Shown piece by piece: positions 9,290 to 29,270 of a stretch of DNA of 39,151 nt. Below the pieces are notes generated by a model that was given only the letters and a program-made list of their open reading frames with translations, was not told the origin of the DNA and did no database searches. Position 1 is the first letter of the stretch. Each line of letters opens with the position of its first letter. Location of the stretch: NCBI GenBank assembly GCA_905235525.1, contig CAJOLW010000016.1, positions 1-39,151 of the forward strand, read 5' to 3'. Made by a program: the position numbers and the translations under genes. The DNA comes from an uncultured Bacteroidaceae bacterium. GTDB lineage: Bacteria; Bacteroidota; Bacteroidia; Bacteroidales; Bacteroidaceae.

Positions 9290-10237
9290 TTAGAGTGTTA
9301 CATCCCAGAAGAGCGAACTGTATCCGTCTTTCAGGTCATCTCCTCCTGCCACGACATCTCCTTTGGTGTCCTTTACCGTCAGGTGGATGCGCCACAAGCC
9401 TGTCATGGTCAAGTTGATGATGCCTTGATAACTGCCGTCCTTTTGCCTGACGAGGGACGTGTTGTCGGGCGAGGTGTGGTTGCCCATGTCGGGCATGCGT
9501 GGGTCGATTTCAATGGTGAATTCCTCTTTTGCCAATCCAAAGGATGCAGTGCGATCCTCGCCCGGCACAGACACGTATGCCTCGATGGTGTTCTTACCCG
9601 TTTCGAAGTCTGTCGGATTGACGATGGAAAGGTAGTAGGTCTTGTCGTTCGCCTTGAACGACTTCACCCATTCCTGACCCTCAGGCAGGGCGTCCACCAT
9701 GATGGCGGTCTTCTCTACTTGTGCGGAACTTCCCAGCACTTCCACGTCATATGAAAGCACCCAATCGCCTGCTTCGCTTGTCGGCATGCTGAACGACACC
9801 CAGCCACGCTGCACAGCCAAATAACTATCGTTGAAACTTTCTATACCTTCTGAGGCAGGTGAACTGTGGTACATGTCCATCTTCACCATGTGCATGAGTG
9901 GTGTCAGGTTCTTGATATTGAATTTTTTAATATAATTACCCGAAATTTTCTTTGTGGCTACAAAGTAAATCTCGTTATACCCTGTATGGAAAGACCCTGA
10001 TTGGGAGTAAGCCCACACATTGTATTTCCCGTCCACCTCAATGGAGAGTTCAGGGATGATTTTAACTGTCTGCAAGAACTTGTACACCTGTAGTGCTTCT
10101 TCTGCCGAGCAGCAATCCACATCGTCCGTGATGGTTATACCGTCAATCACAATGCCATTTTCATCATCGTTACTGTTGCATGATGAGAGCCCCAGCGTTA
10201 CTGCCGCTAAAAACAATGCTAATACCTTTAGTTTCAT
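9290..10237 (-). CDS. Met/His-rich lipoprotein with YtkA/FixH-like C-terminal domain
   Basis: A 315-residue predicted lipoprotein; the lipobox LGLSSC places the lipidated Cys at residue 20. The start at 10237 is chosen because it gives this signal; a longer frame would add 17 unlikely residues. Two Met/His clusters stand out: LMHMVKMDMYH (114-124) and PRMPDMGNHTSP (247-258). The second lies in a segment ending INLTMTGLWRIHLTVKD, typical of YtkA/FixH-like beta-sandwich domains, which in several families bind copper. A CC pair lies at 42-43. It is the first gene of a two-gene unit with the OprC-like receptor. It likely hands metal to, or captures metal for, the receptor at the outer membrane. 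Metal binding is inferred from residue content and the neighbour. Confidence 0.78.
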   Translation of the reverse strand: MKLKVLALFLAAVTLGLSSCNSNDDENGIVIDGITITDDVDCCSAEEALQVYKFLQTVKIIPELSIEVDGKYNVWAYSQSGSFHTGYNEIYFVATKKISGNYIKKFNIKNLTPLMHMVKMDMYHSSPASEGIESFNDSYLAVQRGWVSFSMPTSEAGDWVLSYDVEVLGSSAQVEKTAIMVDALPEGQEWVKSFKANDKTYYLSIVNPTDFETGKNTIEAYVSVPGEDRTASFGLAKEEFTIEIDPRMPDMGNHTSPDNTSLVRQKDGSYQGIINLTMTGLWRIHLTVKDTKGDVVAGGDDLKDGYSSLFWDVTL

Positions 10238-10296
10238 TTTCTTTAAGTTTTTTGTCGTGAATATTTTCGTTATCGTTATCGATTCCATTTTCGGTG

Positions 10297-10365
10297 CAAA
10301 GGTACGGACATTTCATTACCCCCGAAATACCCTTCATGCGCTATTATTGTACCACAAACAGGGTA
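10297..10365 (-). promoter_or_regulatory. Promoter and double TACC-N8-GGTA operator (site A) of the lipoprotein-receptor unit
   Basis: Read on the minus strand: distal site TACCCTGTTTGTGGTA (10365-10350), proximal site TAGCGCATGAAGGGTA (10343-10328), 23 nt, then -7 box TACCTTTG (10304-10297). The two sites are 22 bp apart. No TTTG -33 element is present, as expected for an activator-dependent promoter. The operator fills the gap between the desulfidase stop codon (10372) and this promoter. Confidence 0.75.
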
Positions 10366-10371
10366 GGGGAC

Positions 10372-11643
10372 TTATTTCCCCCGCATAATATCCACAATCA
10401 CTCTTTCTGTTTCCACCATACCAGGTGAAGCGATAAGCCCCATGTTGCGCATGGTCTCTTCGGGAGTGTGACCGTTAATGCCGTGCTCTTTTTCGATACC
10501 TATACCTTGCAATGCCAGTGCTACTGACTGGTAGGCTGCATCCACTGCCACCACGCCCTTCATCGTGCATCCATGATTGCCTCCGTCGCAAATCATACCT
10601 GTGATGCTTGATGCCATGTTTTGAATGGTGAGAATGAGGTTCTTGAGCGAACCGCCTTTCAGCATTGTCAAACCGCATGCCATCCCTGTACCTGCTGCTA
10701 TGGCACATCCACAAAAGGCAGATAATTTACCTGAATACTCCTTGATGTACATGCACACCAGATAACTGAGTGCTGTGGCACGAAGCAGTTGCTCTTCTGT
10801 GTATCCGTTCACCTTCCATGAAGCATAGAGGGGAAGAGTGGCGATGATGCCATGTGCACCACTGCCCGTGATGCTCATGGCAGGACGTGACAATCCCAGT
10901 ACACGTGCCTCAATAGCGGCATTGCAGAGCAGGGATGCTGATGCTTGTTCGTCATCAGAGATGACACGTTCTCCGTTTCTTTTATATAAATAATGTGCAA
11001 ACGCCGTCCTTCGGTTCTTGAGTGCCTGTTCGAAGAGGGCAAGATTGAGTTCGTAAGCCTGACGGATGAAAAGAATCTCCTCCAGGGGGACACGCTGTAC
11101 ATAGTGGAGGAGTTGGCGAAGCGTGTAGCGATGGATGATGGGTGTCGGTCTTCCTTCGTCCTGCATGTAGGCATCTGCTTTCTCGAAAATGATCTGACCA
11201 TCTTTTGTGATTTGTGTGATATTGGTGTGTGCGTCGCGGATGGTTACGCAAGCCACTCCCTCATGCGTTGTCACTTCAGCAAAGATATAGATGCGGCTGC
11301 TGACTTCTCCCAACTCCACCTTCACCTTGCCTGCTTTCACAAGCGTGAGAGCCTTTTGGTTATGGTGAGGTTTTACCCCTTCCAGACACTCCAGCCCTTT
11401 GCTGGCATCGGCAACCACCCAGCCGAGGGCTGCTGCGTGTTCATTGCCCACTTCGTGGCTGTTAGGAATGCCGCAAGTGAAGGCATTCTTGTACATGCCG
11501 CTGTTTAGTACCAGGCGAATCTTTTTCAGTTCACCTGTTATATGTTCCTTCGCCTTTGCTACGGCAAAGGCAATCGCTCCGGGCTCCGTCACACCAAGGG
11601 CGGGGCGCATGTCACCTCGTATCAGTTTTGTCAGTTCCTTCAT
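10372..11643 (-). CDS. cyuA: L-cysteine desulfidase of the UPF0597/CyuA (YhaM) family
   Basis: A 423-residue cytoplasmic protein of the UPF0597 family, related to the serine dehydratase alpha chain. Members such as CyuA use a [4Fe-4S] cluster to split L-cysteine into sulfide, ammonia and pyruvate. Family marks are GVTEPGAIAFAVAKA (18-32), NSGMYKNAFTCGIPNS (about 48-63), SGKLSAFCGCAIAAGTGMACG (about 298-318), and TGMICDGGNHGCTMKG, which supply the cluster cysteines. It overlaps the NhaC-family transporter by 4 nt (ATGA), so import and breakdown of one amino acid are translationally coupled. The unit is driven by the operator at 13064-13110. A serine or other beta-eliminating activity is the alternative. 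Confidence 0.85.
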   Translation of the reverse strand: MKELTKLIRGDMRPALGVTEPGAIAFAVAKAKEHITGELKKIRLVLNSGMYKNAFTCGIPNSHEVGNEHAAALGWVVADASKGLECLEGVKPHHNQKALTLVKAGKVKVELGEVSSRIYIFAEVTTHEGVACVTIRDAHTNITQITKDGQIIFEKADAYMQDEGRPTPIIHRYTLRQLLHYVQRVPLEEILFIRQAYELNLALFEQALKNRRTAFAHYLYKRNGERVISDDEQASASLLCNAAIEARVLGLSRPAMSITGSGAHGIIATLPLYASWKVNGYTEEQLLRATALSYLVCMYIKEYSGKLSAFCGCAIAAGTGMACGLTMLKGGSLKNLILTIQNMASSITGMICDGGNHGCTMKGVVAVDAAYQSVALALQGIGIEKEHGINGHTPEETMRNMGLIASPGMVETERVIVDIMRGK

Positions 11644-13028
11644 TCGTGATGTTTTTTCTCTTTATCAAAATCTCTTTGATAACCAGTGAGACACACCACC
11701 AGCATCACCGCCAGCAATGCCCACGGATAGAATGCGGTGAAGAACACATCCGTTGCCTGAATCCCAATTCCACATCCCGAGGCCTCAATGCCTTTCTGCA
11801 ACAGCAGCACACAGCCACCATAGGGCAAGACGAACGGGAAGGTACAGATGACAGTGGCAAGGAGCGTCGCGCGGCGGTAGGGGTGCAGTCCGTGCTGTTT
11901 TCCGATGCTGTTGACAAATGGCGCAACGCAGATGTTGGCAATCGTGTTCACCGCTGCAATCAGGATGCCTGCCACTGCCACCAGAGAGAAAATGGTCAGT
12001 TCAGCACTTTTTGAGGAACGGATGAAATGGGCATTCAGGTTGTTGATGATGCCATCCATTCCTCCGCTACGTATGATGAGTCCCGACAGGGACACAACCA
12101 CCATCAGGAGAATACAAATGTTTGCCATGCCTCCAATACCCTCCACGATGGCACCATTCACTTTGCCGTTCTCCACGCAGATAAGGCTGCTCAGCGTGAA
12201 AAGGTTGAGTGTCAGTCCAATGCCAACGGCAACTGCCAGCCCCACTGCAAGGGCGATAAAAATATTGATTTTTCGGAAGGAAAGCAGGATGACCACCAAG
12301 GTGGGAATGAGCAAAGCCAATCCTTGTGGATGTTCGGATGTGTTGTCCAAAACAGTGATGGACGTGGTAATATGGAATCCACCTGCAATACCATAAGCAA
12401 TCAATGCCACAACCGATGCTGTCAGTACTAAAGGCAAGCGTTTCTTGACTGTTCCTCCAATGTCGGCACATCCTTTTCCATCAGCATATTCCTGTGTGGT
12501 GGCAGCAATCACCGCCGTATCTGATACCGGGGCAATACTGTCTCCCAGTGCAGCACCCGACAGGATGGCTCCCCCCAGCAAGGTGGGGGCTGCTCCCAAG
12601 GCGATGCCGGCAGGAAAGAGCGTCAGGCTCATGGCACTGATGGTGCCAAAGCCTGAACCTGTGGAAATGGCGAACAGACCTGAAAAGAGAAACACCACCA
12701 AGGTGAACCCCGTGGCATTGATGTGCAGTTGATGAGCCGCCCATATCAGCCCCTCCACAATGTGCCCCTCCTTCAGAATGTTACCATACACCCCCACGAT
12801 GAGCCACAGCAATGTGGCAGTCATGGCGGTTTTACTACCCATGAACTCAAAGACGGTTTCCCAATAAGTTCCCTTGTCTCTGGTAAGAAAAGCCCCTGTA
12901 AGTATGGCTAATATGCCGATGCCTACTAAAAGGTTGATGTCAACCGCTCCCATAAAAGAGAGACCAATGGCCGTTCCCACAAAAAGGGCGAACGGCACAA
13001 ATGAAACAACTGCTTTCCGAGTCATCAA
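11640..13028 (-). CDS. NhaC-family transporter, probable cysteine/amino-acid importer
   Basis: A 462-residue polytopic inner-membrane protein of the NhaC/ArsB-like ion transporter superfamily. It shows about 11-12 hydrophobic helices and the family motifs STGSGFGTISAMS (about 123), GAALGDSIAPVSDTAVIAATTQ (about 158-179), and NTIANICVAPFVNSIG (about 358). NhaC proteins are annotated as Na+/H+ antiporters, but many move amino acids or dicarboxylates. Here the 4-nt overlap with a cysteine desulfidase gene points to cysteine or cystine uptake. Its promoter carries a single perfect TACC-N8-GGTA site at the position used throughout the proposed regulon. The substrate is inferred only from context. 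Confidence 0.82.
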   Translation of the reverse strand: MMTRKAVVSFVPFALFVGTAIGLSFMGAVDINLLVGIGILAILTGAFLTRDKGTYWETVFEFMGSKTAMTATLLWLIVGVYGNILKEGHIVEGLIWAAHQLHINATGFTLVVFLFSGLFAISTGSGFGTISAMSLTLFPAGIALGAAPTLLGGAILSGAALGDSIAPVSDTAVIAATTQEYADGKGCADIGGTVKKRLPLVLTASVVALIAYGIAGGFHITTSITVLDNTSEHPQGLALLIPTLVVILLSFRKINIFIALAVGLAVAVGIGLTLNLFTLSSLICVENGKVNGAIVEGIGGMANICILLMVVVSLSGLIIRSGGMDGIINNLNAHFIRSSKSAELTIFSLVAVAGILIAAVNTIANICVAPFVNSIGKQHGLHPYRRATLLATVICTFPFVLPYGGCVLLLQKGIEASGCGIGIQATDVFFTAFYPWALLAVMLVVCLTGYQRDFDKEKKHHE

Positions 13029-13063
13029 ATTAAAATGTTACCTCTTGTTTCCTAAATCAGGTA

Positions 13064-13110
13064 CAAAGGTACGGTCTTTTCAGCAGTTGTAAAATACCTT
13101 TTTCATGGTA
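13064..13110 (-). promoter_or_regulatory. Promoter and TACC-N8-GGTA operator (site B) of the transporter-desulfidase unit
   Basis: On the minus strand: TACCATGAAAAAGGTA (13110-13095), 23 nt, then TACCTTTG (13071-13064). The site is perfect. There is no second copy 22 bp upstream, and no TTTG -33 element. Confidence 0.72.
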
Positions 13111-13130
13111 GATGGATGTCTCTCCTCTTT

Positions 13131-13360
13131 TCAATTCTTTTTCGGTTTTTCACCTTCTTTCAGTTTCCGTGCCTCATAGCCGGCTCTTAACAATTGGTTG
13201 ACGGTGATTTTATCGGCATCATACTCGATGGTGACGGTTTGTTGTTGAGGTTGTATGTACATCGTCCAGCCTTTGTGACTGAAGCGTGTCTGTCTGTGCC
13301 GAGACGAAAAGTCCCAATAGCCAGAAAGTTCCTGCCAAGAGATATCATGTGTTCATCCAT
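13131..13360 (-). pseudogene. Broken small secreted protein with an HMA-like C-terminal half
   Basis: No single frame covers this gene, but pieces of one are spread over frames. An ATG lies at 13356, followed after three codons by TGA; that frame then reads a clear signal peptide (YLLAGTFWLLGLFVSAQ) and TDTLQSQRLDDVH. A neighbouring frame continues MYIQPQQQTVTIEYDADKIT then VNQLLRAGYEARKLKEG, stopping at 13131. TVTIEYDADK plus a helix ending AGYEA is the second half of a heavy-metal-associated (MerP/Atx1-like) fold; the CxxC half is missing. A promoter-like TACCTTTG precedes it at 13384-13377. I read this as a decayed or deleted metal-chaperone gene. A small intact gene with frameshift errors is the alternative. 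Confidence 0.45.
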
Positions 13361-13376
13361 GTTGTGTTTGGTGCTA

Positions 13377-13384
13377 CAAAGGTA
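13377..13384 (-). promoter_or_regulatory. -7 box upstream of the broken HMA-like gene
   Basis: CAAAGGTA on the plus strand gives TACCTTTG on the minus strand, 17 nt before the possible start at 13360. No TTTG -33 and no TACC-N8-GGTA site is found at the spacing used by the neighbouring promoters. Confidence 0.45.
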
Positions 13385-13450
13385 CGACTTTTCTTGTAAT
13401 AGTTGAGGTAAATGTCTGTTAAAGAATGCTATCTGTATATTGAAAATATA

Positions 13451-13483
13451 AAAACAGGAGCGCTTCATCGCGAAGCACCCCTG
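13451..13483 (-). terminator. Terminator downstream of the small lipoprotein gene
   Basis: On the minus strand CAGGGGTGCTTC (13483-13472) pairs with GAAGCGCTCCTG (13466-13455), with two mismatches, and is followed by TTTT. The position, about 100 nt after the lipoprotein stop codon, fits the end of the susD-lipoprotein transcript. Confidence 0.72.
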
Positions 13484-13580
13484 CTCAAATTGATGAGTTC
13501 AAATTCGTCAGTTATTTTTTAATTATGGCATTTAATTGGTTTTATTAATCTATTCTAATTAATTTATTTGACTTATATAT

Positions 13581-14075
13581 CTATTTTTTCCCAGAGAAAG
13601 TGAGGATAATGTGTGACGAGGCGTGATTGAGCGTCAACTCGTAAGTCAATTGTTTGCTTTCAACATCAACATGACCGTCGAAATGGGCAGCAAATTCAAT
13701 GACATTGCCTCGACTTGATATAGATTTGATATTGTTGGGGTAATCTTCATTGAAAGTGCCATTATTGTTCAGTTTCACGGTGAGGTCGTAACCTGTATAA
13801 ACCAATGCGCTCTCGCTTTCCCCCAGAGCGTAAGACGGAGTTTGGATAGTCACCGTACCGTCGCCGTTGTCGGTCAATGTAACCTGAGCTTCAGGGTTGT
13901 TAGGGAAAGCGAATACATTATCGATACCGTCGTTGGTCAAATAGCCCGTATGAAGGCCTTTATAGATACCTGCGGTACTTCGTGGATTATCATCATCATC
14001 ATCGTTGCTGCACGATACAAGAGTTGTACCGAATAATGTGATTGCAGCCAAGATGATTGTTTTGAAATTTCTCAT
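13581..14075 (-). CDS. Small calycin-like lipoprotein
   Basis: A 164-residue predicted lipoprotein: signal MRNFKTIILAAITLFGTTLV followed by SCSNDDDDDN, with the lipidated Cys near residue 22 and an acidic linker that in Bacteroidota favours surface export. The remainder is all-beta, with short strands and turns (AQVTLTDNGDGTVTIQTPSY, NVIEFAAHFDGHV, QLTYELTLNH), resembling the calycin-like domain family of Bacteroidales. It follows susD at 131 nt, across a strong hairpin. In SUS-type loci an extra small lipoprotein of this kind often helps bind the ligand. No specific function can be assigned. Confidence 0.75.
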   Translation of the reverse strand: MRNFKTIILAAITLFGTTLVSCSNDDDDDNPRSTAGIYKGLHTGYLTNDGIDNVFAFPNNPEAQVTLTDNGDGTVTIQTPSYALGESESALVYTGYDLTVKLNNNGTFNEDYPNNIKSISSRGNVIEFAAHFDGHVDVESKQLTYELTLNHASSHIILTFSGKK

Positions 14076-14136
14076 GAAACGTCGTGTTTTTATTTTGTAT
14101 GTTAATAAATAATGTGTTGTTGTGAGGGTATAGTAA

Positions 14137-14173
14137 GGGCTGGCACATGAGTCTGTCTATGATGTGCCAGCCC
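14137..14173. terminator. Perfect 12-bp hairpin after susD
   Basis: GGGCTGGCACAT (14137-14148) and ATGTGCCAGCCC (14162-14173) pair perfectly with a 13-nt loop. There is no long T-run on the minus strand, so it may act as a partial terminator or processing site that lowers expression of the small lipoprotein relative to susD. Confidence 0.65.
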
Positions 14174-14206
14174 CTTATATAAAACGGAAATGATTGGTCT
14201 GTTTTG

Positions 14207-15877
14207 TTAATATCCAGGATTCTGTGGCACGATGTGGAGATCTTCGCCTGTCAAGCCTGTTGGAATAGGCTGGCGGTAGTGCTTACCACGTACGTTGTCA
14301 TATTTTGCATGCAGGTGCTTATAAACTTTGGCGAAGAATGCACTGACCTCGTTGCCGTCCTTACCTGTTTTGCCAGCCTCCTTGTAGGAGTTGTCGAAGT
14401 GCTTGTAAGTGGATACTTCCTTAACGGACTTGATGTAGTCCTTCCAACGATAATGGTTGATGAGGTCGAATTGCTCGTAGGTGAACTCGTAGTCCCATTC
14501 ACGCTTGATGACATCGAGGGTGAGGTCTGCAGCATTGACTGTGGCAATGCCAGCACGGGTGCGGAGTTGGTTGAAATCGTCAACAGCCTTGTCTGCCTGT
14601 CCGAGTTGTACGAGTGCCTCAGCCTTGGTGAGGAGTACTTCCGCATAGCGAATTTCGATACGGTCGATAGAGTTGTACTTGATTTCACCATCCTCAAACT
14701 CAGAACCTTCATAACTCTGATCGACACCCTTACCGTTGAGAGGTGTATAGATGGGTGAGTAGTAGGTGTATGTATTTTTGTCTCTTGAGTTGTAGAGTTC
14801 GATGAAGTAAGTCTTGGCAAGACGCTTGTCGTTGGGCTGCTCTTTGAACCAATTGTCATAGAGGTCGTCATCTGCCACTTCTGTGTGGTTGTCTTGAAAT
14901 CCATTGCCGAATTGACCGTTCTGGAATGGGAAAGTCCATGAGCAGTGGGTCTGGTGGTTGCCCTGTTCATCCTTGCCGTCACCATCGTGGGCAATGGTGA
15001 GCAGGTGCTCGTTGTACTTGCGCTTGTTGCTCTCATATTCGCGACCGAACAATTTAGCATAGTCCGGATCGAGGCCGAGTTTGCCGCTGGTGATGACTTT
15101 GTCGGCATATTCCACAGCCTTCTCTAGGCGTGCAGGTGTAGTGGTGAAAGCGGGGTCTGTCTGGCTGTTGGCAATAGCAGAAACTTCGCTCTGAGAGAGT
15201 GGATTGTCACCCCAGAAGAGGTAGGCGCGCGCCAAGAGTCCCTGCGCTGCCTGCTTGGAGGGGGTACGTGGATCGCCATCGTAGTCCTTCAGCAGTGATT
15301 CGGCTGCGGTCAAGTCGTTGATTACTTGTGTTAACACCTTGTCAATGCTCTGCCGTTCAGTGGTGCTGCCGCCTGCTTCAGTGAAAACAGGTACTTCGCC
15401 CCATAACTGTGCGAGTTTCAGATAAGCCAGACCACGGAGAAGTTTTGCCTTACCGATGGCTGCATTGTAGCCAGTCTGTGTCACCTTGCCAGACTTCTGG
15501 GCTTCGTTGATGGCAGCGATGTCCTCGTTCAGTTCTGTGATGCCAAGGAAGAGGTGGTTGAAGATTTTTACCTGATACCATGTGCCGGGTTCCTGTTCCA
15601 GACGGCTTACCACAGGCCCTGCTTCTCCTTCTTCACCCTCGAAAGAGATGAGTTTGTTGGTGGCACTCTCAATGATAAAAGTGAATGAAGAACTGAGTGG
15701 TTGCCAATGTGAATAGACTCCGTTGACCAACGAGAGGGCGCTGGCATCGTCAGTTATTACGTTCTCTTCTGTCACTTGGTTGTTACCAGTGTTGTCATCA
15801 TCATCACTTGAACAAGATGAGAATCCTGCCAAAAGTGTAGTTGCTGCAATGGCAGCGAGTAGTAAATTCTTTTTCAT
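14207..15877 (-). CDS. SusD/RagB-family outer-membrane lipoprotein
   Basis: A 556-residue SusD-like nutrient-binding lipoprotein that closes over the SusC channel at the cell surface. The lipobox LLAGFSSCSSDDDD puts the lipidated Cys at about residue 22, followed by an acidic surface-export signal. SusD hallmarks are present: the N-terminal TPR-like helices (ALSLVNGVYSHW; AAIGKAKLLRGLAYLKLAQLWGEVPVFTE) and the C-terminal block RIEIRYAEVLLTKAEALVQL with DFNQLRTRAGI and IKREWDYEFTYEQFDLINHYRW. It lies 158 nt after susC, unusually far, and that gap contains its own operator-controlled promoter. The ligand is unknown; the shared operator with cysK and the desulfidase unit suggests a sulfur-containing compound. 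Confidence 0.93.
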   Translation of the reverse strand: MKKNLLLAAIAATTLLAGFSSCSSDDDDNTGNNQVTEENVITDDASALSLVNGVYSHWQPLSSSFTFIIESATNKLISFEGEEGEAGPVVSRLEQEPGTWYQVKIFNHLFLGITELNEDIAAINEAQKSGKVTQTGYNAAIGKAKLLRGLAYLKLAQLWGEVPVFTEAGGSTTERQSIDKVLTQVINDLTAAESLLKDYDGDPRTPSKQAAQGLLARAYLFWGDNPLSQSEVSAIANSQTDPAFTTTPARLEKAVEYADKVITSGKLGLDPDYAKLFGREYESNKRKYNEHLLTIAHDGDGKDEQGNHQTHCSWTFPFQNGQFGNGFQDNHTEVADDDLYDNWFKEQPNDKRLAKTYFIELYNSRDKNTYTYYSPIYTPLNGKGVDQSYEGSEFEDGEIKYNSIDRIEIRYAEVLLTKAEALVQLGQADKAVDDFNQLRTRAGIATVNAADLTLDVIKREWDYEFTYEQFDLINHYRWKDYIKSVKEVSTYKHFDNSYKEAGKTGKDGNEVSAFFAKVYKHLHAKYDNVRGKHYRQPIPTGLTGEDLHIVPQNPGY

Positions 15878-15948
15878 TGTCGTGTTTGTTTTTAATTTAT
15901 ATTTCTGTGAATTTGTTTATTATATAGTTATTTCTCCTAATTTTGCTG

Positions 15949-16017
15949 CAAAGTTACGATGTTTTATCTATATGGGTAATCCCTTTTTGGGGGTATTTTG
16001 CTACCATATAAAGGGTA
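15949..16017 (-). promoter_or_regulatory. Promoter and double operator (site C) of susD
   Basis: On the minus strand: distal TACCCTTTATATGGTA (16017-16002), proximal TACCCCCAAAAAGGGA (15995-15980), 23 nt, then TAACTTTG (15956-15949). The sites are 22 bp apart. The arrangement copies sites A, D and E exactly. It means susD can be transcribed separately from susC. Confidence 0.75.
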
Positions 16018-16035
16018 TATAGATACTTAACGTTC

Positions 16036-19000
16036 TTAAAGAGAGAATGTTACACCAAATGTAAATGTGCGTGCAGAAGGGTAGGCTCCGCTATCTGTCC
16101 CACTGCTCACCTCAGGGTCATATCCTTTGTAGGGCGTAAGGGTGAAGAGGTTGGTGGCTGTGGCATAAATGCGGATGCCCACGGGAAATGTCTTGGGCAG
16201 ACGAGGTCGGTAACCAATAGTGAGATTGCGCAGTTTCAGATAAGAAGCACTCTGTACGTAACGGCTATCGATGTAGGAGAAGGGTCTGGTGTTGCTGGCA
16301 AGAGGGAGTGAGTTGCCGCCTTGCTCTGGAGTCCATGAGTTATTTACGGTGGAAAGCACGTTGTAGGAGTCGCCAGTCAGTTCCAGTCGTCGTCCCAAAG
16401 CGTTGTATAACTTCGCTCCATAACTGCCAGCGAAGGTGAGCGATGCGTCGAACTCGCGATACTGCAATTGAGTGGAGAAACCATAGGTGAGTTTGGGCTG
16501 TATGCTACCAAGGATTTGGCGGTCATTGCCATCAATTTTGTTGTCGTTGTTGGCATCTATGTATTTGATGTCACCTGCTTTAGGAGTGGCTCCGTTGATG
16601 GTGGGCAACTTGCTTACGTCCTCACCTTGCTGCACGATGCCGGCAAACTGTAAGCCGTAGAAGGAGCCGAGGGCTTCGCCCTTGCGAAGAATCTGCTGAC
16701 TGTCGAATCCTTGGATTACATTGTCAGTTGTGCCCATGTCGGTGATTTTGTTCTTATTGTGGGCGATGTTGGCTGAAGCCGTCCAGTTGAGGTGGCGACG
16801 CTTGAGCAGTGTACCGTTGACTGCAAACTCAATACCCTTGTTTTCCACGTTACCTACATTTTGGATCTGGCTGGTCACACCAGCGGCAAAGCCCATAGGG
16901 ACATCGAGCAACAAGTCGGATGTCTTTTTGTAGTAGAGGTCGAGTACGAAATTGAGTCTTCCGCCATAAAGTCCGAGGTCTGCTCCGAAGTTGTAACTGG
17001 CAGTGGTTTCCCACTTTAAGTCGTCGTTGACGGCGTTTTGTTTGCTGTAGGACGATGAACCAGCGTAAGAACCGGTGGAGTAGGAGGTGGTGAAAGCATA
17101 GTCACTGATTTCTTGATTGCCGACAACACCGCCAGTGAGTCTCACCTTTAGGTAATCCAGATTGCGTGCTCCTGCTAAAAAGGATTCCTTATCCACATTC
17201 CACGACAATCCGAGCGAGGGGAAGTAGCCCCAACGGTGATTCTTTGAGAATCTGCTGGAGTGGTCAGCACGGAAGGTGGCGGTGGCGTTGTAGCGGTCAA
17301 GCAGGGTGTAGTTCACACGAGCGATGATGCTGTTGAGGGTGGATTCCACGATGCCTGTCTGTGGCACGTAGATGTTGGCTCCGTCTCCCAGATTGTATTG
17401 TTTTAGAGTTTCGTTGGTGAAGTGGTTGGTGCGGATGGAACTGTAGGTTGAGGTAGTGTTCTGCTTAGTGTAACCAGCCAAGGCATCAACGTGATGATTG
17501 TCATTGATGTCTTTATTGTAAGTGAGGGTGTATTCTTGTTGCCAAGTGTCGGTCTGTCGGTTGCCTGTGCCTCCTATGCCTTGCGTGGCGAGACCGAGGG
17601 ATGTGTTGGCTCCCGAAAAGTAGTTTTGGGTGAGTTTCTCGCTATTGAGTCCCACAGCGGCTTTGAGGGTGAAGTCGTTCAGTTTGTAGGTGGCCCATAA
17701 GTTGCTGAGCAGATAGTTGTTCACGTTCTCTGCCACACTCTCTTTTAAGTCATAGACAGCGTTGACTGCATGTTCTCCGATGGCAAAGTAAGCATATTCG
17801 TAAGGATTGGTGAAATTGTATGAACCATCTGTTTTATAAACGGGCACGACAGGAGGCGTGAGCAGGGCATAGACAAAACTGTTGGTGATGCCTGCTGAGA
17901 AGGGTGAGGAGTTGAATACCTGTTCCTCGGTGGTGGTGAGTCCAGTCTGCTTAGAGCGTCCGTAGGTGGTGTTGACACCAAATTTGATGTTCTTTTGCAA
18001 CTCCCATTCTGTGTTGATGTGGAAGTTATAGCGTTGGAAGCCTGAGTTGAGGACGATACCGTCTTGGTCGGTGTAGTTGGCTGAGAAGGCGTATCGGCTT
18101 TTCTCTGTGCCACCGTTGATGGAGAGTTCGTGTTGCTGCTGAAGGGCGGTGCGGAGCACTTCGTCCTGCCAGTCAGTGCCTTTACCTAATGTGGCTATCT
18201 CGTCGTTGGTGTAGCCTCCCTTGTTCCCGAAGTATGTTTTCTGTAGTTGTGCCCATTCAGAGGCATTCATCAAATCGAGTTTTTTGGTCACATTGCTGAA
18301 TCCCAAGTTGTAGCCATAACTGATGTTGGCTTTCTTCTCACCTAACTTCCCTTTCTTAGTGGTGATGAGGATGACACCATTGGCGCCACGCGAGCCATAG
18401 ATGGCAGTGGCGGAAACGTCTTTCAGCACTTCAATGCTCTCGATGTCACTGGGGTTGATTGTGGCTAAAGGGTTGAGGCTGCTTTCTATGGCTCCAAGCC
18501 CGGTGCCACTACCATTGGCGTCCTTGAAGTAGATGAAGCCATCGACCACATAAAGTGGTTCGTTGCTGGCATTGACCGAGTTTCCGCCGCGGATGCGAAT
18601 ATTGCTGTCTGCTCCAGGCTGTCCGCTGGAGGCAGTGACGTTGAGGCCTGCCACTTGACCGCTCAGGGCACCGTCGAGTGTGGCAGCGGTGCTGTTCTCA
18701 AATACCTCGGCTTTCACCGTGGCCACCGAACCTGTCAACTGCGTGCGGCTCTGTGTACCATAGCCCACCACGACCACGTCGTCGAGGTAACTGCGTTTCT
18801 CGGTGAGTTTCACGTTGATGTCTTCCTCGTCGTCATAAACATTGACTGTCTGCGATTTGTAACCTGTGAAACTGATGTTCAACTTGACTGGCAGCGACTT
18901 CACGTCAATGGAGAAGTGGCCGTCAATGTCGGTGGTCACACCTTTTCCGTCACCATATTTTACAGTGGCTCCGATGATGCTCTCTCCTGATGCGGCATCT

Positions 19001-19089
19001 GTGATGGTGCCTTGCACTGTTTGCGCCCAAGCCGCAAAAGTGGAAGCGACGGTTAGTGCCGCCGCTAAAAACAATCTTTCCTTAATCAT
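16036..19089 (-). CDS. SusC/RagA-family TonB-linked outer-membrane transporter
   Basis: A 1017-residue SusC-like transporter. A signal peptide ending FAAWAQ is followed by the carboxypeptidase-regulatory-like domain (VQGTITDAASGESIIGATVK to about residue 95), the TonB box region DDVVVVGYGTQSR (about 100-112), a plug with IRGGNSVNASNEPLYVVDGF and SIEVLKDVSATAIYGSRGANGV, and a large barrel ending ARTFTFGVTFSL. It imports a ligand captured by SusD using TonB energy. It begins 85 nt after the periplasmic binding-protein gene, with which it probably shares a promoter, and susD follows under its own promoter. No carbohydrate-active enzyme is nearby, so a polysaccharide substrate is unlikely. Confidence 0.95.
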   Translation of the reverse strand: MIKERLFLAAALTVASTFAAWAQTVQGTITDAASGESIIGATVKYGDGKGVTTDIDGHFSIDVKSLPVKLNISFTGYKSQTVNVYDDEEDINVKLTEKRSYLDDVVVVGYGTQSRTQLTGSVATVKAEVFENSTAATLDGALSGQVAGLNVTASSGQPGADSNIRIRGGNSVNASNEPLYVVDGFIYFKDANGSGTGLGAIESSLNPLATINPSDIESIEVLKDVSATAIYGSRGANGVILITTKKGKLGEKKANISYGYNLGFSNVTKKLDLMNASEWAQLQKTYFGNKGGYTNDEIATLGKGTDWQDEVLRTALQQQHELSINGGTEKSRYAFSANYTDQDGIVLNSGFQRYNFHINTEWELQKNIKFGVNTTYGRSKQTGLTTTEEQVFNSSPFSAGITNSFVYALLTPPVVPVYKTDGSYNFTNPYEYAYFAIGEHAVNAVYDLKESVAENVNNYLLSNLWATYKLNDFTLKAAVGLNSEKLTQNYFSGANTSLGLATQGIGGTGNRQTDTWQQEYTLTYNKDINDNHHVDALAGYTKQNTTSTYSSIRTNHFTNETLKQYNLGDGANIYVPQTGIVESTLNSIIARVNYTLLDRYNATATFRADHSSRFSKNHRWGYFPSLGLSWNVDKESFLAGARNLDYLKVRLTGGVVGNQEISDYAFTTSYSTGSYAGSSSYSKQNAVNDDLKWETTASYNFGADLGLYGGRLNFVLDLYYKKTSDLLLDVPMGFAAGVTSQIQNVGNVENKGIEFAVNGTLLKRRHLNWTASANIAHNKNKITDMGTTDNVIQGFDSQQILRKGEALGSFYGLQFAGIVQQGEDVSKLPTINGATPKAGDIKYIDANNDNKIDGNDRQILGSIQPKLTYGFSTQLQYREFDASLTFAGSYGAKLYNALGRRLELTGDSYNVLSTVNNSWTPEQGGNSLPLASNTRPFSYIDSRYVQSASYLKLRNLTIGYRPRLPKTFPVGIRIYATATNLFTLTPYKGYDPEVSSGTDSGAYPSARTFTFGVTFSL

Positions 19090-19174
19090 GTTGTATGAAG
19101 TTTTTTGTATCTGATTTTAACCTTTAAATTGAACTTTTTACCTTTAATTTGATTCTTTAATTCTTTCAAGTTCT

Positions 19175-20080
19175 TTAATTGTTCTGTGCCAAGAGTCTCA
19201 ACTGGCTCTCCACCTCCTTGTTGGTCAGATGGAGGAACCCTGCAGCGTGGTTGTACTGTTGTCCGTCGCGGATAATCCACTGGAGGAACTGGTCGATGTC
19301 TGCATCGAAACTGTTGTAGGTGAAACCGATGTCTTCCACGGGAATGAGGTCGATGTCTTCGTTTTCAATCAGTTCAAGCGTCTCATCGAGGTTGCCGGAA
19401 CGCAGTGCCTCACGTTGGCTTGCCTTCACATTAAGGGGCAGGAGAGCGAGGTCGCTGCGGAGTGTGCGTGAAGAGAGGTCGTAGAGGTTGCTCAGTGCAT
19501 TGAAAGTGACCGAGGCCTTGTCTTCCTCTATGGCTGAGAGCAGGTAGAGGTCATCACCGGCAATGCGGTTGCCACGCAGGTCATCGATGGTGCGTCCGAA
19601 GTGAGAGGCGAAGATGCCTGACAGGGATGCCTTGCTACTACCCGAATACACCGTTAACTTGTCTTTCAGTTTGTTGCGCTTACCCTCCACTTCTTCCTCA
19701 TACTCCTCGTCAAGGTCTTCTGCTGTAAAAAAGAGGTTCTTGATGTCTTTACTTTTCCATTCTTTCTTTTGGATGTCATCCAGCAGAGGATTGCTTGTCG
19801 ATGTGACAGGCAGCAGAGCATAGCGACCCACGTAGGTCACGTTTACGCCCTCCTGATGGCTGTTTACCAATGTGAGGTCGGCATCCACATTCTTGCCACT
19901 TACCAAAGTAATCTGCACATTAGGATTCACAGCCTTATAACCCTCTATCCATTTTTCCACCAGGGTTTTGTTGGTCTTATTCACTTTCACTGTAATCACA
20001 CCATCGTTCTGTGCTGTTGCTGCACCTGCCGTTAATGCCACGGCTACTGCTATTGTTGTAAAAAAAGTCTTAATGTTCAT
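19175..20080 (-). CDS. Periplasmic solute-binding protein (PstS/ModA-like fold) paired with SusC
   Basis: A 301-residue secreted protein: signal peptide MNIKTFFTTIAVAVALTAGAATAQ, then a type II periplasmic-binding-protein layout. ITVKVNKTNKTLVEKWIEGY and NPNVQITLVSGKNVDADLTLVN form the first beta-alpha units, YALLPVTSTSNPLLDDI follows, and KLTVYSGSSKASLSGIFASHFGR is a Ser-rich phosphate/sulfate-type loop. There is no lipobox, so it is free in the periplasm. No ABC permease or ATPase gene is adjacent; instead it heads a unit with SusC and is driven by the triple operator at 20136-20225. It may receive the ligand delivered by SusCD or sense it. An oxyanion-like ligand is only an inference from the fold. 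Confidence 0.75.
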   Translation of the reverse strand: MNIKTFFTTIAVAVALTAGAATAQNDGVITVKVNKTNKTLVEKWIEGYKAVNPNVQITLVSGKNVDADLTLVNSHQEGVNVTYVGRYALLPVTSTSNPLLDDIQKKEWKSKDIKNLFFTAEDLDEEYEEEVEGKRNKLKDKLTVYSGSSKASLSGIFASHFGRTIDDLRGNRIAGDDLYLLSAIEEDKASVTFNALSNLYDLSSRTLRSDLALLPLNVKASQREALRSGNLDETLELIENEDIDLIPVEDIGFTYNSFDADIDQFLQWIIRDGQQYNHAAGFLHLTNKEVESQLRLLAQNN

Positions 20081-20135
20081 ATCTTTTATATTTAATATAT
20101 GTTTATAGTTTTGAGTTAATTCTCTAAATCCGCTG

Positions 20136-20225
20136 CAAAGGTACGGACTTTCTGTCGTCCTTGAAATCCCTTTGATGGGGTAGTCGAATACCTTAAATAT
20201 GGTATGCTTGGCCTTAAATATGGTA
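20136..20225 (-). promoter_or_regulatory. Promoter and triple operator (site D) of the binding protein-susC unit
   Basis: On the minus strand: third copy TACCATATTTAAGGCC (20225-20210), distal TACCATATTTAAGGTA (20204-20189), proximal TACCCCATCAAAGGGA (20182-20167), 23 nt, then TACCTTTG (20143-20136). The third copy arose by a 21-bp tandem duplication (20191-20211 and 20212-20232). The region is also upstream of the divergent response-regulator gene. Confidence 0.75.
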
Positions 20226-20291
20226 TGCTTGGAAAGAACTTCTATTTACAGTTATATACATAGATAAATTTTCTAAACAAAATGCTTTTTA

Positions 20292-20322
20292 TTGGTAAAA
20301 AGTGATAGTGTCTGTACCTTTG
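20292..20322 (+). promoter_or_regulatory. Promoter of the response-regulator gene
   Basis: TTG at 20292-20294, a 20-nt spacer and TACCTTTG at 20315-20322 form a standard Bacteroidota promoter with a proper -33 element, unlike the five operator promoters. It therefore should fire without the activator. The start codon is 57 nt downstream of the -7 box. Confidence 0.72.
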
Positions 20323-20378
20323 CACCGGGTTTGGAAATAAGGTTTCCTTCTAAACTCAAAACTTTACAATAAAGAACT

Positions 20379-21041
20379 ATGGACAAGAAACGTATCATCA
20401 TCGCAGATAATCAGGATATCACACGACTGGGACTGAAGACCTTGATACGTGTGGCATTGAAAGACGTAGAGGGATTGGAAGTGAAGGAACTTGGTCATAG
20501 AGCGGAGTTGATTGCCGAACTGAAGGAGGATCCTGACTCTGTGGTCATTATCGACTACACACTTTTCGATCTCGGTAGTCCCGACGAGTTGCTCAATCTA
20601 AGTGAACGGTTCCCCTTTGTGTCGTGGGTGCTCTTCTCTGCTGATTTAACCGAGCAACTGATGCGTCGGCTCAGTGTAGAACTCCAATTTAGCATGATTC
20701 TGAAGGACGATTCAGCGCAGGAAATCATTACGGCGCTGAAGTGTGCCGTTACGGGAGTCCGTTTCCTCTGTCATCAAGTGACCAATTTGCTGCTCACCCC
20801 TGCGCCCCAGCAGGGGGTGGCGGAGCGCGACCAGTTGACCTCTGCCGAGAAGGAAGTGTTGCGGCTTATTGCCCTGGGCAAGTCGGTGAAGGAGATTGCT
20901 GCCGAGCGAAGTTCGAGCATCCACACCATCACGACTCACAAGAAGAACATTTTCCGCAAGATCAATGTGAACACCATCTATGAGGCCACGAAGTATGCTC
21001 TGAGGGCTGGACTGGTGGAGATGGTGGAATACTATATTTAG
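20379..21041 (+). CDS. NarL/FixJ-family response regulator, proposed activator of the sulfur regulon
   Basis: A 220-residue two-domain transcription factor. The receiver (1-125) keeps D10 of the acidic pocket, the phospho-acceptor D59 in VVIIDYTLFDL, S87 and K109 (ILKDDS). The linker PAPQQGVAERD leads to a LuxR-type helix-turn-helix (about 153-213: LTSAEKEVLRLIALGKSVKE, then HTITTHKKNIFRKINV). No sensor kinase gene is in the window. Its gene is divergent from the binding protein-susC unit and 24 nt before the MetY-like gene, probably co-transcribed with it. TACC-N8-GGTA sites at five nearby promoters match the 7-2-7 inverted heptamers of NarL-family proteins, so it is the natural candidate to bind them. 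The family is firm; the regulon is inferred. Confidence 0.92.
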   Translation: MDKKRIIIADNQDITRLGLKTLIRVALKDVEGLEVKELGHRAELIAELKEDPDSVVIIDYTLFDLGSPDELLNLSERFPFVSWVLFSADLTEQLMRRLSVELQFSMILKDDSAQEIITALKCAVTGVRFLCHQVTNLLLTPAPQQGVAERDQLTSAEKEVLRLIALGKSVKEIAAERSSSIHTITTHKKNIFRKINVNTIYEATKYALRAGLVEMVEYYI

Positions 21042-21065
21042 ATGTAAAATGTGAATTGACAGTAG

Positions 21066-22238
21066 ATGAAAAAGTCAACGATAGCCATTCAAACAAGATA
21101 CCCTCTTCCCGATGCCTATGGAGCAGTGGGCATGCCGGTGTATCATACTGCAGCATACGAGTTTGCCACCGCCAAGGAGATGGCTGACGCTTTCTGCGGT
21201 CGGTCGGCGGCACCCAGTTATTCGAGGGTGACAAACCCTACCGTAACCCATTTTGAGGATCGTGTAAAGGCACTGACCGGTGCAGCCGACGTATTTGCCT
21301 TCTGCTCGGGCATGGCTGCTATCACCAACGCACTGCTGGCAGTGGTGGAACACGGGCAGAACATCGTCACTTCGCGCCATCTGTTCGGCAACACGGTGGG
21401 ACTCATCAACCGCACGTTGGCACGGCTTGGGGTGGAAGGGCGTTTTATCGATTTACTTGATCTTGATGCTGTCCGTCAGGCTGTGGATGACCACACGGCT
21501 TGCATCTTCCTCGAAATCATCACCAATCCCCAGATGGAAGTGGCTGACCTCGGAGCATTGGCTGAGATAGCCCACGGACATGGCATTCCTCTCATAGCCG
21601 ACACGACCATCATTCCTTTTACCCAATTCAGCGCCAAGGATTTAGGAGTGGATATAGAGGTGGTGAGCAGCACGAAGTACATCTCAGGTGGTGCCACTTC
21701 GCTGGGAGGACTGCTGATGGAATATGGTACCTTCCCGCAGGTGGCACAGCGCATCCGTGCCGAACTGCTCTACAACCTGGGCAGTTACATGGCGCCTCAT
21801 GCTGCCTACATGCAGACCTTGGGGCTGGAGACTCTTGATGCCCGCTATCGGGTGCAGGCACAGAACGCATTGAATTTGGCACAGCGTCTTGCCGAGGTGC
21901 CCCAGATTGTGCAGACCAATTACGTTGGTCTGAAAACCAACCCATTCTACACCTTGGCACAGAAACAGTTTGGCCCTACGGCTGGTGCCATGCTCACCAT
22001 TGACCTCAGCGACAAACAGGCGTGTTTTCACTTCATCGACCACCTCAAGTTGGTGAGGCGTGTGACGAACCTGTTCGACAACAAAACCCTTGCCATCCAT
22101 CCCTACAGCACGATATTTGGCCCTTTCAGCCGTTCTCAGAAACTGGCGATGGATGTGCTCGACACGACCATCCGACTCTCGGTGGGACTGGAGGATGTGG
22201 ACGACATCTACGAGGACATTGTGCAGGCTCTACCATGA
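21066..22238 (+). CDS. Cys/Met-metabolism PLP enzyme, MetY-like sulfhydrylase or gamma-lyase
   Basis: A 390-residue PLP-dependent enzyme of the Cys/Met metabolism family (cystathionine gamma-synthase, O-acetylhomoserine sulfhydrylase, methionine gamma-lyase). Visible marks: SYSRVTNPTV (51-60), CSGMAAI phosphate-binding segment (80-86), FLEIITNPQMEVADL (148-162), DTTIIPF (179-185; the PLP-contacting Asp), and SSTKYISGG with Schiff-base K204. Within the family it cannot be fixed from sequence alone; beside cysteine synthase and a sulfur-carrier system, O-acetylhomoserine sulfhydrylase is the best guess, making homocysteine from sulfide or a protein thiocarboxylate. The last codons and stop overlap a regulatory site that serves the next gene. 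Confidence 0.85.
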   Translation: MKKSTIAIQTRYPLPDAYGAVGMPVYHTAAYEFATAKEMADAFCGRSAAPSYSRVTNPTVTHFEDRVKALTGAADVFAFCSGMAAITNALLAVVEHGQNIVTSRHLFGNTVGLINRTLARLGVEGRFIDLLDLDAVRQAVDDHTACIFLEIITNPQMEVADLGALAEIAHGHGIPLIADTTIIPFTQFSAKDLGVDIEVVSSTKYISGGATSLGGLLMEYGTFPQVAQRIRAELLYNLGSYMAPHAAYMQTLGLETLDARYRVQAQNALNLAQRLAEVPQIVQTNYVGLKTNPFYTLAQKQFGPTAGAMLTIDLSDKQACFHFIDHLKLVRRVTNLFDNKTLAIHPYSTIFGPFSRSQKLAMDVLDTTIRLSVGLEDVDDIYEDIVQALP

Positions 22239-22299
22239 AAGTGGTAGCAGAATACCACAGGGAGGGGATTGTGTAGCAGGCTGGAAACCACGACCTTTG
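22231..22299 (+). promoter_or_regulatory. Promoter and double operator (site E) of cysK, overlapping the end of the upstream gene
   Basis: Plus strand: distal TACCATGAAAGTGGTA (22231-22246), proximal TACCACAGGGAGGGGA (22253-22268), 23 nt, then GACCTTTG (22292-22299). The 22-bp pitch and 23-nt gap are identical to those of the minus-strand sites. The distal site includes the stop codon of the MetY-like gene. The -7 box departs from TAnnTTTG in one base. Confidence 0.7.
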
Positions 22300-22382: not shown

Positions 22383-23318
22383 ATGGCAAGAAGAATCGCA
22401 AACAGTCTGGTGGAACTGATTGGAAAGACACCATTGCTGGAACTCTCGAAGACTGAAAAGAACGAAGGTCTTCGGGCGCGTGTGCTGGCTAAATTGGAGT
22501 ATCTGAACCCTGGGCGCAGCGTGAAAGACCGTGTGGCTCTGGCTCTGATTGAGAAGGCGGAGCGAGAGGGAGTCCTCTCCAAAAACACCGTCATCATTGA
22601 ACCTACGAGTGGCAACACGGGTGTGGGACTGGCTCTGGTGGCTGCCCAGCGTGGCTACAAACTCATCCTCACCATGCCCGACAGCATGAGCGTTGAGCGC
22701 CGTATTCTCCTGCGGAGCCTGGGCGCAAAACTGGTGCTGACGCCTGCTCATGAAGGTATGCCGGGTGCCATCCGCAAGGCGCAGGAACTGGCTGCCGAGA
22801 CGAATGCCTTCATCCCACAGCAGTTCGACAACGAGGCAAATCCGCAGATTCACCGCACCACGACGGCTCAGGAGATTTGGGCTGACACGGACGGGAAGGT
22901 GGACATCTTTGTGGCTGGTGTGGGCACCGGCGGCACCGTGACGGGTGTGGGCGAAGTGCTGAAGAAACTCAATCCGAAGGTGAAAGTGGTGGCTGTGGAG
23001 CCGTATGACTCTCCTGTCCTCTCGGGTGGGAAGCCCGGACCGCACAAGTTGCAGGGCATTGGAGCGGGCTTTGCTCCCAAGGTGCTGAACACGTCCATCT
23101 ACGATGAGATTTTCCGTGTGAAGAACCAGGATGCCTTTGTGGCAAGTCGCCAGTTGGCCAAGACCGAGGGCGTGCTGGTAGGCATCAGCAGTGGAGCGGC
23201 TGCCCATGCTGCCCTCCAGATAGCCAAACGCCCGGAGAATGCCGGCAAGACCATCGTGGTGCTCCTGCCCGACACGGGAGAACGGTATCTCAGCACGGCT
23301 CTCTTTACAGAAGAGTAA
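22383..23318 (+). CDS. cysK: Cysteine synthase (O-acetylserine sulfhydrylase)
   Basis: A 311-residue fold-type II PLP enzyme that makes cysteine from O-acetylserine and a sulfur donor in the cytoplasm. Motifs: NPGRSVKDR with PLP-binding K48, [11 protein letters not shown] (about 74-84; substrate loop), [14 protein letters not shown] (phosphate-binding loop, about 178-191), and GISSGAA near 266. The length is typical of CysK/CysM. No serine acetyltransferase gene is in the window. In actinobacteria, CysM-type enzymes take sulfur from the thiocarboxylate of the carrier CysO; the ThiS-like carrier directly downstream makes that route possible here. It has its own activator-type promoter and starts the operon that runs to the encapsulin cargo. 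Confidence 0.95.
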
Positions 23319-23392: not shown

Positions 23393-23608
23393 ATGGCAAA
23401 GATTATTGTAAATGGAGAGGATCAGGAGATTCAACTCCCTGTCACTGTGGCAGATTTGATTAAGATTAACAAGGTATTGCAACCCGACATGGTGAGTGTG
23501 CAGGTGAACGAAGAGTTCGTTGACCGTGAGGATTTTGGCACGACTCAACTCAATGAGGGTGACGAGGTGGATTTCCTCTATTTCATGGGAGGTGGTGCTT
23601 ATGTTTGA
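23393..23608 (+). CDS. ThiS/MoaD-like sulfur carrier with a GGGAYV tail
   Basis: A 71-residue beta-grasp sulfur carrier (KIIVNGEDQEI, VTVADLIKINKV, NEEFVDREDF, LNEGDEVDFLYFMGGG). Such proteins are adenylated and sulfurylated on a C-terminal GG to become thiocarboxylates. Here the glycines are followed by Ala-Tyr-Val, so the tail must be cut before activation. Carriers with masked tails and a partner JAMM protease are known (QbsE/QbsD in Pseudomonas, HcyS/HcyD in Wolinella), and a JAMM gene lies four genes downstream. The start at 23393 gives the normal family length; the longer frame adds 14 residues. A GC-rich hairpin (23352-23374) lies just upstream. The ATG of the E1 gene overlaps its end by 8 nt. 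Confidence 0.88.
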   Translation: MAKIIVNGEDQEIQLPVTVADLIKINKVLQPDMVSVQVNEEFVDREDFGTTQLNEGDEVDFLYFMGGGAYV

Positions 23609-29267: not shown

Positions 29268-29270
29268 AAA

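Follow-up and report, generated by a model that had tools for sequence, protein, structure and literature searches.

A two-site promoter code predicted to link an orphan NarL-type response regulator to sulfur and cysteine genes in Bacteroidales

In this study, we analyzed a 39,151-nucleotide stretch of DNA from an uncultured Bacteroidaceae bacterium (GenBank assembly GCA_905235525.1, contig CAJOLW010000016.1; hereafter the window), in which five promoters (A to E) carrying the 16-bp inverted repeat TACC-N8-GGTA surround the gene of an orphan response regulator of the NarL/VraR type. We consider it probable that these repeats are the operators of the regulator and that the five promoters form the core of a regulon for sulfur and cysteine supply, with the regulator as its activator. 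The sites, their spacing, the conservation of both, the target genes and the co-distribution of the motif with the regulator are read directly from sequence, and because the paired site travels with the regulator gene, the orphan regulator is the likely switch for these genes. Beyond the window we lean, with less assurance, toward an undescribed master regulator of sulfur and cysteine metabolism in many Bacteroidales (Bacteroides, Prevotellaceae, Muribaculaceae, Dysgonomonadaceae and rumen Bacteroidaceae), that is, one orphan NarL-family response regulator that reads a two-dimer promoter code (22 to 23 bp between sites, with 23 nt separating the proximal site from the -7 box). Under its control would stand cysK, homocysteine synthesis and tRNA thiolation, joined in some lineages by sulfur uptake across the outer membrane and by an encapsulin organelle that stores sulfur. 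An earlier annotation made from the letters of the window (the sequence-only reading) had already named this gene as the regulator of the sulfur and cysteine units, an interpretation now supported by a genome scan, by conservation of the spacing and by the co-distribution of motif and regulator; the spread of the motif to other families and the carrier, encapsulin and desulfurase part of the genes behind promoter E (unit E) go beyond it.

The geometry that the annotation had described was recovered in full on re-reading, with all coordinates and strands correct (A, B, C and D on the minus strand, E on the plus strand). All five promoters carry TACC-N8-GGTA, or a one-base variant, 23 nt ahead of a TAnnTTTG-like box, and each of the four two-site promoters has a second copy 22 bp further upstream (start to start), this distal copy being perfect in all four. 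The -7 box reads TACCTTTG at A, B and D, TAACTTTG at C and GACCTTTG at E, where five of the six defined bases match. Promoters of sigma-ABfr consist of TAnnTTTG at -7 and TTTG near -33 (PMC7366714, excerpt); by this criterion the -7 box is full at four of the five window promoters and the -33 element is degenerate. The claim that a TTTG -33 box is lacking holds literally in the window, but 19 nt ahead of the -7 box there is a degenerate element, which reads TTTC at A and D, TTGT at E, TTAC at C and TTTT at B. The missing TTTG is in any case weak evidence, because in Flavobacterium johnsoniae, too, no -33 box could be recognized (same excerpt). The distal site of promoter E overlaps the preceding gene and includes its stop codon. 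By eye, a ∼21-bp tandem duplication lies at 20190-20229, beside the distal site of promoter D, and creates an extra partial repeat.

The bare repeat is not rare, as the own genome (2,774,878 bases) holds 26 distinct perfect copies and the reversed control pattern occurs 109 times. Five of the 26 fall inside a 12-kb span of the window, where ∼0.09 would be expected. When one mismatch is tolerated, the window count is 17, compared to an expectation of 7.4, and none of 100 shuffles reached 17. Each of the five perfect window sites is followed, at 23 or 45 nt, by a box in which at least 5 of the 6 defined bases match; among the remaining 21 perfect sites, whose surrounding DNA was read as 20 stretches on both strands, none has a 6/6 box and one has a 5/6 box (the score of E). 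The claim was also borne out by a whole-genome profile scan with a sequence-only promoter model (R1), which ranked A, D, C, E and B as its top five, ahead of a sixth match (E 3.5e-5). The ranking of A, C, D and E is partly built in, because these four trained the model; B was outside the training set.

Other species keep this spacing, ahead of different genes as well. In a sample made up of the window and 20-kb stretches around 20 regulator homologues (repeat matching at least 7/8, box at least 5/6), offset 23 gave 32 matches, one of them the reverse reading of an already counted site, in 11 of the 21 sequences (the window, L051-L056, L059-L061 and L064), and every other offset from 10 to 40 gave 0 to 5. 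A second copy 22 bp upstream accompanies 23 of the 32. Looser criteria add D-type promoters, the loci L057 and L058, in which the regulator and the binding protein are the sole window genes found, and one cysK promoter in L066, from another genus; even so, no such promoter was found in L062, L063, L065, L067, L068 or L070, and L069 gave a poor match only. Of the 11 loci L051-L061, 8 retain the gene order regulator, pyridoxal phosphate (PLP) enzyme, cysK, MoeB, DsrE, JAB, encapsulin and SufS, and in L056, L057 and L058 the later part of the row is absent from the stretch read. An alignment of 36 promoters (A1) is no test of the geometry, because its members were selected by it, and is descriptive: the distal TACC..GGTA is almost invariant, base 22 is A, and the proximal site is weaker (T..C......GGKA) and followed by TT, most commonly as TTTC (20/36; TTTG in 2/36), 19 nt ahead of TAnCTTTG. 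The proximal repeat therefore ends at the degenerate -33 element. Between the proximal site and the -7 box the spacer shows a conserved GGG..GG.GAAATGTCCG, and in columns 39-61 of the alignment the blocks TTTCGGG and GAAATGTCCG are conserved.

A scan of genome contigs for the regulator placed the motif in a wider setting. Among the best 80 of its 546 matches, the relatives of the window are Bacteroidaceae metagenome assemblies, many from the rumen, and further homologues occur in Bacteroides, Segatella, Prevotella, Parabacteroides, Paludibacter, Dysgonomonas, Tannerellaceae, Muribaculaceae and a soil Bacteroidetes. Perfect sites number 56 in the 68 loci L113-L180, which were picked by the regulator and lie outside the close group, compared to a mean of 18 and a maximum of 25 in 10 base shuffles and to 38 for the reversed pattern. 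Counted by offset, a perfect site is followed by a full -7 box in 14 cases at 23 nt, 15 at 45 nt, 4 at 46 nt and 8 at 18 nt, with at most one full box at every remaining offset from 5 to 70. The 33 promoters at 23, 45 or 46 nt are spread over 29 loci from Bacteroides (including reticulotermitis, heparinolyticus, salyersiae, finegoldii, graminisolvens and fluxus), Prevotellaceae, Muribaculaceae, Dysgonomonadaceae, assemblies labelled Parabacteroides and the soil genome. Behind them lie cysK (13), sulfhydrylase-type genes (12), the regulator itself (3), mnmA (3), a ResA/TlpA-like thiol protein (1) and an M20 peptidase (1); the sulfur and cysteine theme proposed for the window, with cysK, O-acetylhomoserine sulfhydrylase and mnmA, thus extends to other genera. 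Segatella was dropped as a bearer of the motif, since L135 and L145 hold a regulator homologue and no promoter of this kind. That the sites are chance matches, or reflect shared ancestry of a few promoters, has next to no probability in our judgment: the commonness of the bare repeat and of its reversal speaks for it, whereas in two locus sets, and ahead of different genes, the offset peaks stand at precisely 23, 45 and 46 nt, and chance matching is contradicted by the box-offset tests together with the site counts in the own genome.

Across genomes, the motif tends to follow the regulator, as judged from sequence matches. In the genus of the window (45 genomes), a regulator of at least 75% identity is present in 26, all of which carry the motif at E <= 5.5e-12, as do all 14 of them that lay outside the training of R1, and none of the 13 regulator-less genomes (no match at 1e-20) reaches 1e-4, their best matches being 1.9e-4 or weaker (p 5e-8). 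Five genomes with a homologue of 57-58% identity have best matches of 1.6e-13, 1.0e-13 (G274, a training member), 3.9e-7, 3.0e-6 and 1.0e-4, and one with a partial regulator gene has 7.8e-5. Beyond the genus, a match at 1e-4 occurs in 41 genomes from 12 genera (one of them, G028, was in the training set), and 39 of the 41 hold a regulator homologue at E < 1e-20, a threshold at which homologues span more than one subfamily, compared to 84 of ∼280 genomes overall (the Fisher test used 281; the recount of 280 hardly changes it). Motif and regulator need not be neighbors: 24 of 55 matches outside the genus lie within 25 kb of the regulator, and in G092, G056, G262 and G285 the motif-bearing cysK and the regulator are on separate contigs. 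The family sample comprises 30 genera, 13 of which show matches at 1e-4, for which reason a single-genome curiosity was rejected; several other genera place the two copies 23 bp apart instead of 22 and retain the 23 nt to the box.

A second, unlinked cysK offers a comparison that holds the target gene constant, unlike the cluster-wide correlation. In the own genome it has a perfect site (G000:C21:64757-64772, L043) 49 nt from the -7 box, and in the unlinked loci L201-L220 perfect sites stand at a conserved 49-51 nt. Where the regulator is present, 15 of 20 loci have a perfect site upstream, versus 2 of 13 loci where it is absent (p 0.001). The former represent 20 of the 25 genomes, the own genome excluded, whose regulator reaches at least 75% identity; the latter come from 12 genomes, a thirteenth (G321) having no cysK match.

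Several observations weigh against a sulfur regulon under this regulator. Within the window, promoter B has a single site only and the box of E begins with G. Around the homologues, 39 of the 68 loci, Segatella buccae and S. copri among them, lack a promoter with a perfect site and full box at 23, 45 or 46 nt, and outside the genus 45 of the 84 regulator-bearing genomes have no match at 1e-4 under strict filters. The correlation within the genus is in part the loss of one gene cluster, because the binding-protein gene, present in 28 of the 45 genomes, is absent from all 13 regulator-less ones, and the genome statistics ignore kinship. Three Bacteroides-type matches (L091-L093) precede genes without a clear sulfur role; the 49-51 nt of the second cysK are about half a turn off 45 nt, a spacing that the model leaves unexplained; G098 and G304 keep the second-cysK site without a detected regulator; and the receiver domain of the regulator is below Pfam detection at E 0.001, the DNA-binding domain alone being detected. 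Some of these points would suit a different transcription factor at the sites, with the response regulator a mere neighbor or a second target: the sites of G098 and G304, the regulator-bearing genomes without a match and, in addition, the two motif genomes outside the genus without a homologue at 1e-20 (G039 and G145). We regard this as distinctly unlikely, given the co-occurrence of motif and regulator over 12 other genera, several with cysK and regulator on different contigs, and given sites directly ahead of the regulator gene itself (L113, L119, L167 and G005) and of a paralogue (G135 and G163). NarL-family dimers bind 7-2-7 inverted repeats, moreover, and the layout of the repeats fits such operators. 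In two Bacteroides-type genomes, a canonical double site stands just upstream of a paralogous response regulator of 34% identity (L184, site 1540; L185, site 1978), which suggests a cascade or self-control.

From the arrangement of sites, promoters and genes we infer binding, activation, phosphorylation, operon structure and signal as follows. One dimer of the regulator would occupy the strong distal repeat and another the weaker proximal repeat, which reaches to the degenerate -33 element, and would there help RNA polymerase to start; a class II dimer would thus be backed by a class I dimer 22 bp, or about two helical turns, upstream, at about -44 and about -66 if transcription starts shortly after the box. 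Scarcity of sulfur or cysteine would turn the regulator on, probably through phosphorylation of D59 by an unlinked kinase, and the active regulator would raise uptake (SusCD, binding protein, receptor and symporters), cysteine handling (the NhaC and CyuA-like proteins), cysteine synthesis (CysK with the ThiS/MoeB/JAB sulfur carrier) and an encapsulin-desulfurase store. Alternatively, the regulator could bind and repress, or do both, the promoters being shut when sulfur is plentiful. The proximal site abuts the -33 position, the second cysK uses ∼50 nt, and in the 18-nt set (L117, L121, L130, L136, L139, L143, L152 and L154) a divergent gene for an S41-type protease-like lipoprotein, its family checked in L139, has its own -7 box and shares the distal site, which at 18 nt overlaps its -33 region. 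Yet the position of the sites relative to the core promoter is fixed (23 nt and 22 bp, or 23 bp between copies in several other genera, with the second cysK as the exception), and a strict 23-nt spacing with a second copy about two turns upstream, off the core promoter, is the habit of activators, whereas repressor sites usually drift more; we therefore hold repression to be unlikely.

The signal is less secure, and there is a minor but real possibility that the regulon exists and answers to redox state, sulfide stress or another nutrient. A Pfam scan of 28 window proteins found no histidine kinase, the remaining genome not having been searched for kinases, and the targets include SusCD and the PstS-like binding protein. 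Sulfur status is favored by the genes downstream of the motif, which across genera are mostly cysK, sulfhydrylase, mnmA and ThiS/MoeB/JAB, and by work on Bacteroides thetaiotaomicron, in which cysK falls during co-culture with an H2S producer and, of the two sulfhydrylase genes reported, one falls (-5.12 logFC) and the other rises (1.24 logFC) (PMC11610557). The excerpt of that paper names no regulator for these changes, and the drop in cysK and sulfhydrylase fits induction by sulfur shortage. Likewise, the induction of the SrpI encapsulin of Synechococcus by sulfur starvation (PMC8049743, excerpt) fits unit E.

The regulator itself contains a C-terminal LuxR-type helix-turn-helix (GerE, PF00196, E 2.1e-14, above cut-off) and aligns over its full length with VraR (5hev, E 1.3e-14) and NarL (1a04, E 6e-10), the best full-length matches to solved members reaching only 39-58 bits. 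In an alignment of 25 sequences, D10, D59 and K109 never vary, and N11 and S87 are conserved in at least 90%; a working phospho-receiver is likely because these phosphorylation residues are conserved. It thus resembles the NarL/FixJ regulators NarL and VraR in its GerE domain, in a receiver with conserved Asp, Ser and Lys and in 16-bp inverted repeats that could accommodate two 7-mers flanking 2 bp, a likeness seen here at the level of sequence, and differs from them in being an orphan in the window with sulfur genes as targets. The half-site here is TACC, compared to the full heptamer of NarL. CysB (LysR-type) and CymR (Rrf2-type) control cysK and cystine and sulfur uptake; the targets are common to those systems and the present one, in which a response regulator with two phased sites takes their place. 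Family 2 encapsulins such as SrpI of Synechococcus likewise combine a shell with a SufS-type cargo (PMC8049743 and PMC8346489, excerpts), whereas here a 2B shell with a cNMP domain stands in a cysK-headed row under a fixed-spacing promoter, with a desulfurase below the cargo cut-off. Operons of ThiS, E1, JAB and cysteine synthase, for which sulfur transfer to cysteine has been proposed (PMC1779556, excerpt), contain the same kinds of genes, here joined with DsrE2, TusA, an encapsulin and a neighboring regulator. In the open literature we found no regulator of Bacteroidales cysteine synthesis; subscription papers and regulon databases were outside this coverage, so a prior prediction elsewhere is possible. 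In one excerpt, an iron-response table includes a sulfhydrylase gene of B. thetaiotaomicron, with no mention of LuxR (PMC10434189), and a term search of the main text of PMC10994844 returned neither "sulfur" nor "cysteine" nor "response regulator". What is new is the regulon; the kind of regulator is already known.

Table 1. Promoters, regulator and genes of the predicted regulon, in window coordinates
Feature	Position	Strand	Details
Promoter A	10297..10365	-	Distal site 10350-10365, proximal 10328-10343, -7 box 10297-10304; profile E 6.7e-17; targets: YtkA-like lipoprotein, outer-membrane barrel, SDF symporter
Promoter B	13064..13110	-	Single site 13095-13110, -7 box 13064-13071; profile E 7.2e-6; targets: NhaC-like transporter, SDH_alpha (CyuA-like)
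Promoter C	15949..16017	-	Distal site 16002-16017, proximal 15980-15995, -7 box 15949-15956; profile E 1.6e-11; targets: SusD, small lipoprotein
Promoter D	20136..20204	-	Distal site 20189-20204, proximal 20167-20182, -7 box 20136-20143; profile E 1.9e-15; targets: binding protein, then SusC
Promoter E	22231..22299	+	Distal site 22231-22246, proximal 22253-22268, -7 box 22292-22299; profile E 2.3e-11; targets: cysK, sulfur-carrier/encapsulin genes
Orphan NarL/VraR-type response regulator	20379..21041	+	GerE domain; proposed binder of the sites
Probable own promoter of regulator	20292..20322	+	TTGG-N19-TACCTTTG, by eye
Cys/Met PLP enzyme (O-acetylhomoserine sulfhydrylase / Met gamma-lyase type)	21066..22238	+	Adjoins regulator; best NCBIfam models below cut-off
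Periplasmic binding protein, PstS-like fold	19175..20080	-	Model pLDDT 72, medium confidence
SusC-type TonB receptor	16036..19089	-	
SusD-type lipoprotein	14207..15877	-	
Small lipoprotein downstream of SusD	13581..14075	-	No Pfam match
NhaC-family transporter	11640..13028	-	
SDH_alpha family enzyme	10372..11643	-	PF03313 E 1.8e-51; presumably a CyuA-type cysteine desulfidase
YtkA-like lipoprotein	9290..10288	-	
Outer-membrane receptor-like beta-barrel protein	7293..9260	-	PF14905, below cut-off
SDF-family symporter	5941..7143	-	
Cysteine synthase CysK	22383..23318	+	TIGR01139, above cut-off
ThiS-like sulfur carrier	23393..23608	+	C-terminal GGGAYV
MoeB/ThiF-like E1 enzyme	23601..24410	+	Start codon picked by eye
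DsrE2-like sulfur carrier	24427..24906	+	NCBIfam below cut-off
TusA-like sulfurtransferase	24985..25209	+	
JAB metallopeptidase	25206..25604	+	
Family 2B encapsulin shell (cNMP domain + SrpI-like)	25649..27088	+	NF041163 555 bits, cut-off 400; PF00027
SufS-type cysteine desulfurase, encapsulin-cargo-like	27088..28656	+	

Gene order suggests that the genes behind each promoter form one transcript: the YtkA-like lipoprotein, receptor-like barrel and SDF symporter in unit A, the NhaC-like and SDH_alpha genes in unit B, SusD and the lipoprotein in unit C, the PstS-fold binding protein, with SusC as a probable further member, in unit D, and the row from cysK through the ThiS-like, MoeB-like, DsrE2, TusA, JAB and encapsulin genes to the SufS-type gene in unit E. 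The binding protein has no Pfam or NCBIfam match; the best Foldseek match of its model is 4omb (3.7e-11), and PstS-like matches reach a query TM of ∼0.5-0.6. A relative of the SDF symporter adjoins a motif-bearing cysK in L086 and L087. The desulfurase passes the sufS model TIGR01979 (553 vs 475) and stays below the cargo model NF041166 (690 bits vs 800). As the ThiS-like carrier extends past its GG, the JAB peptidase could free the GG end. The small ThiS-like and TusA-like genes escape a long-ORF (open reading frame) scan. Further along, a 2-oxoacid:ferredoxin oxidoreductase beta subunit (29260-30217) ends at 193 amino acids, compared to a family model of 286 positions, and looks like the result of a frameshift, decay or an assembly error.

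Bacteroidales of the gut and rumen contribute to the turnover of sulfide and cysteine in the intestine. A promoter code together with one candidate gene makes the question of how these bacteria control cysteine synthesis testable in laboratory Bacteroides, and the regulator is at the same time a candidate switch for the encapsulin-desulfurase gene set.

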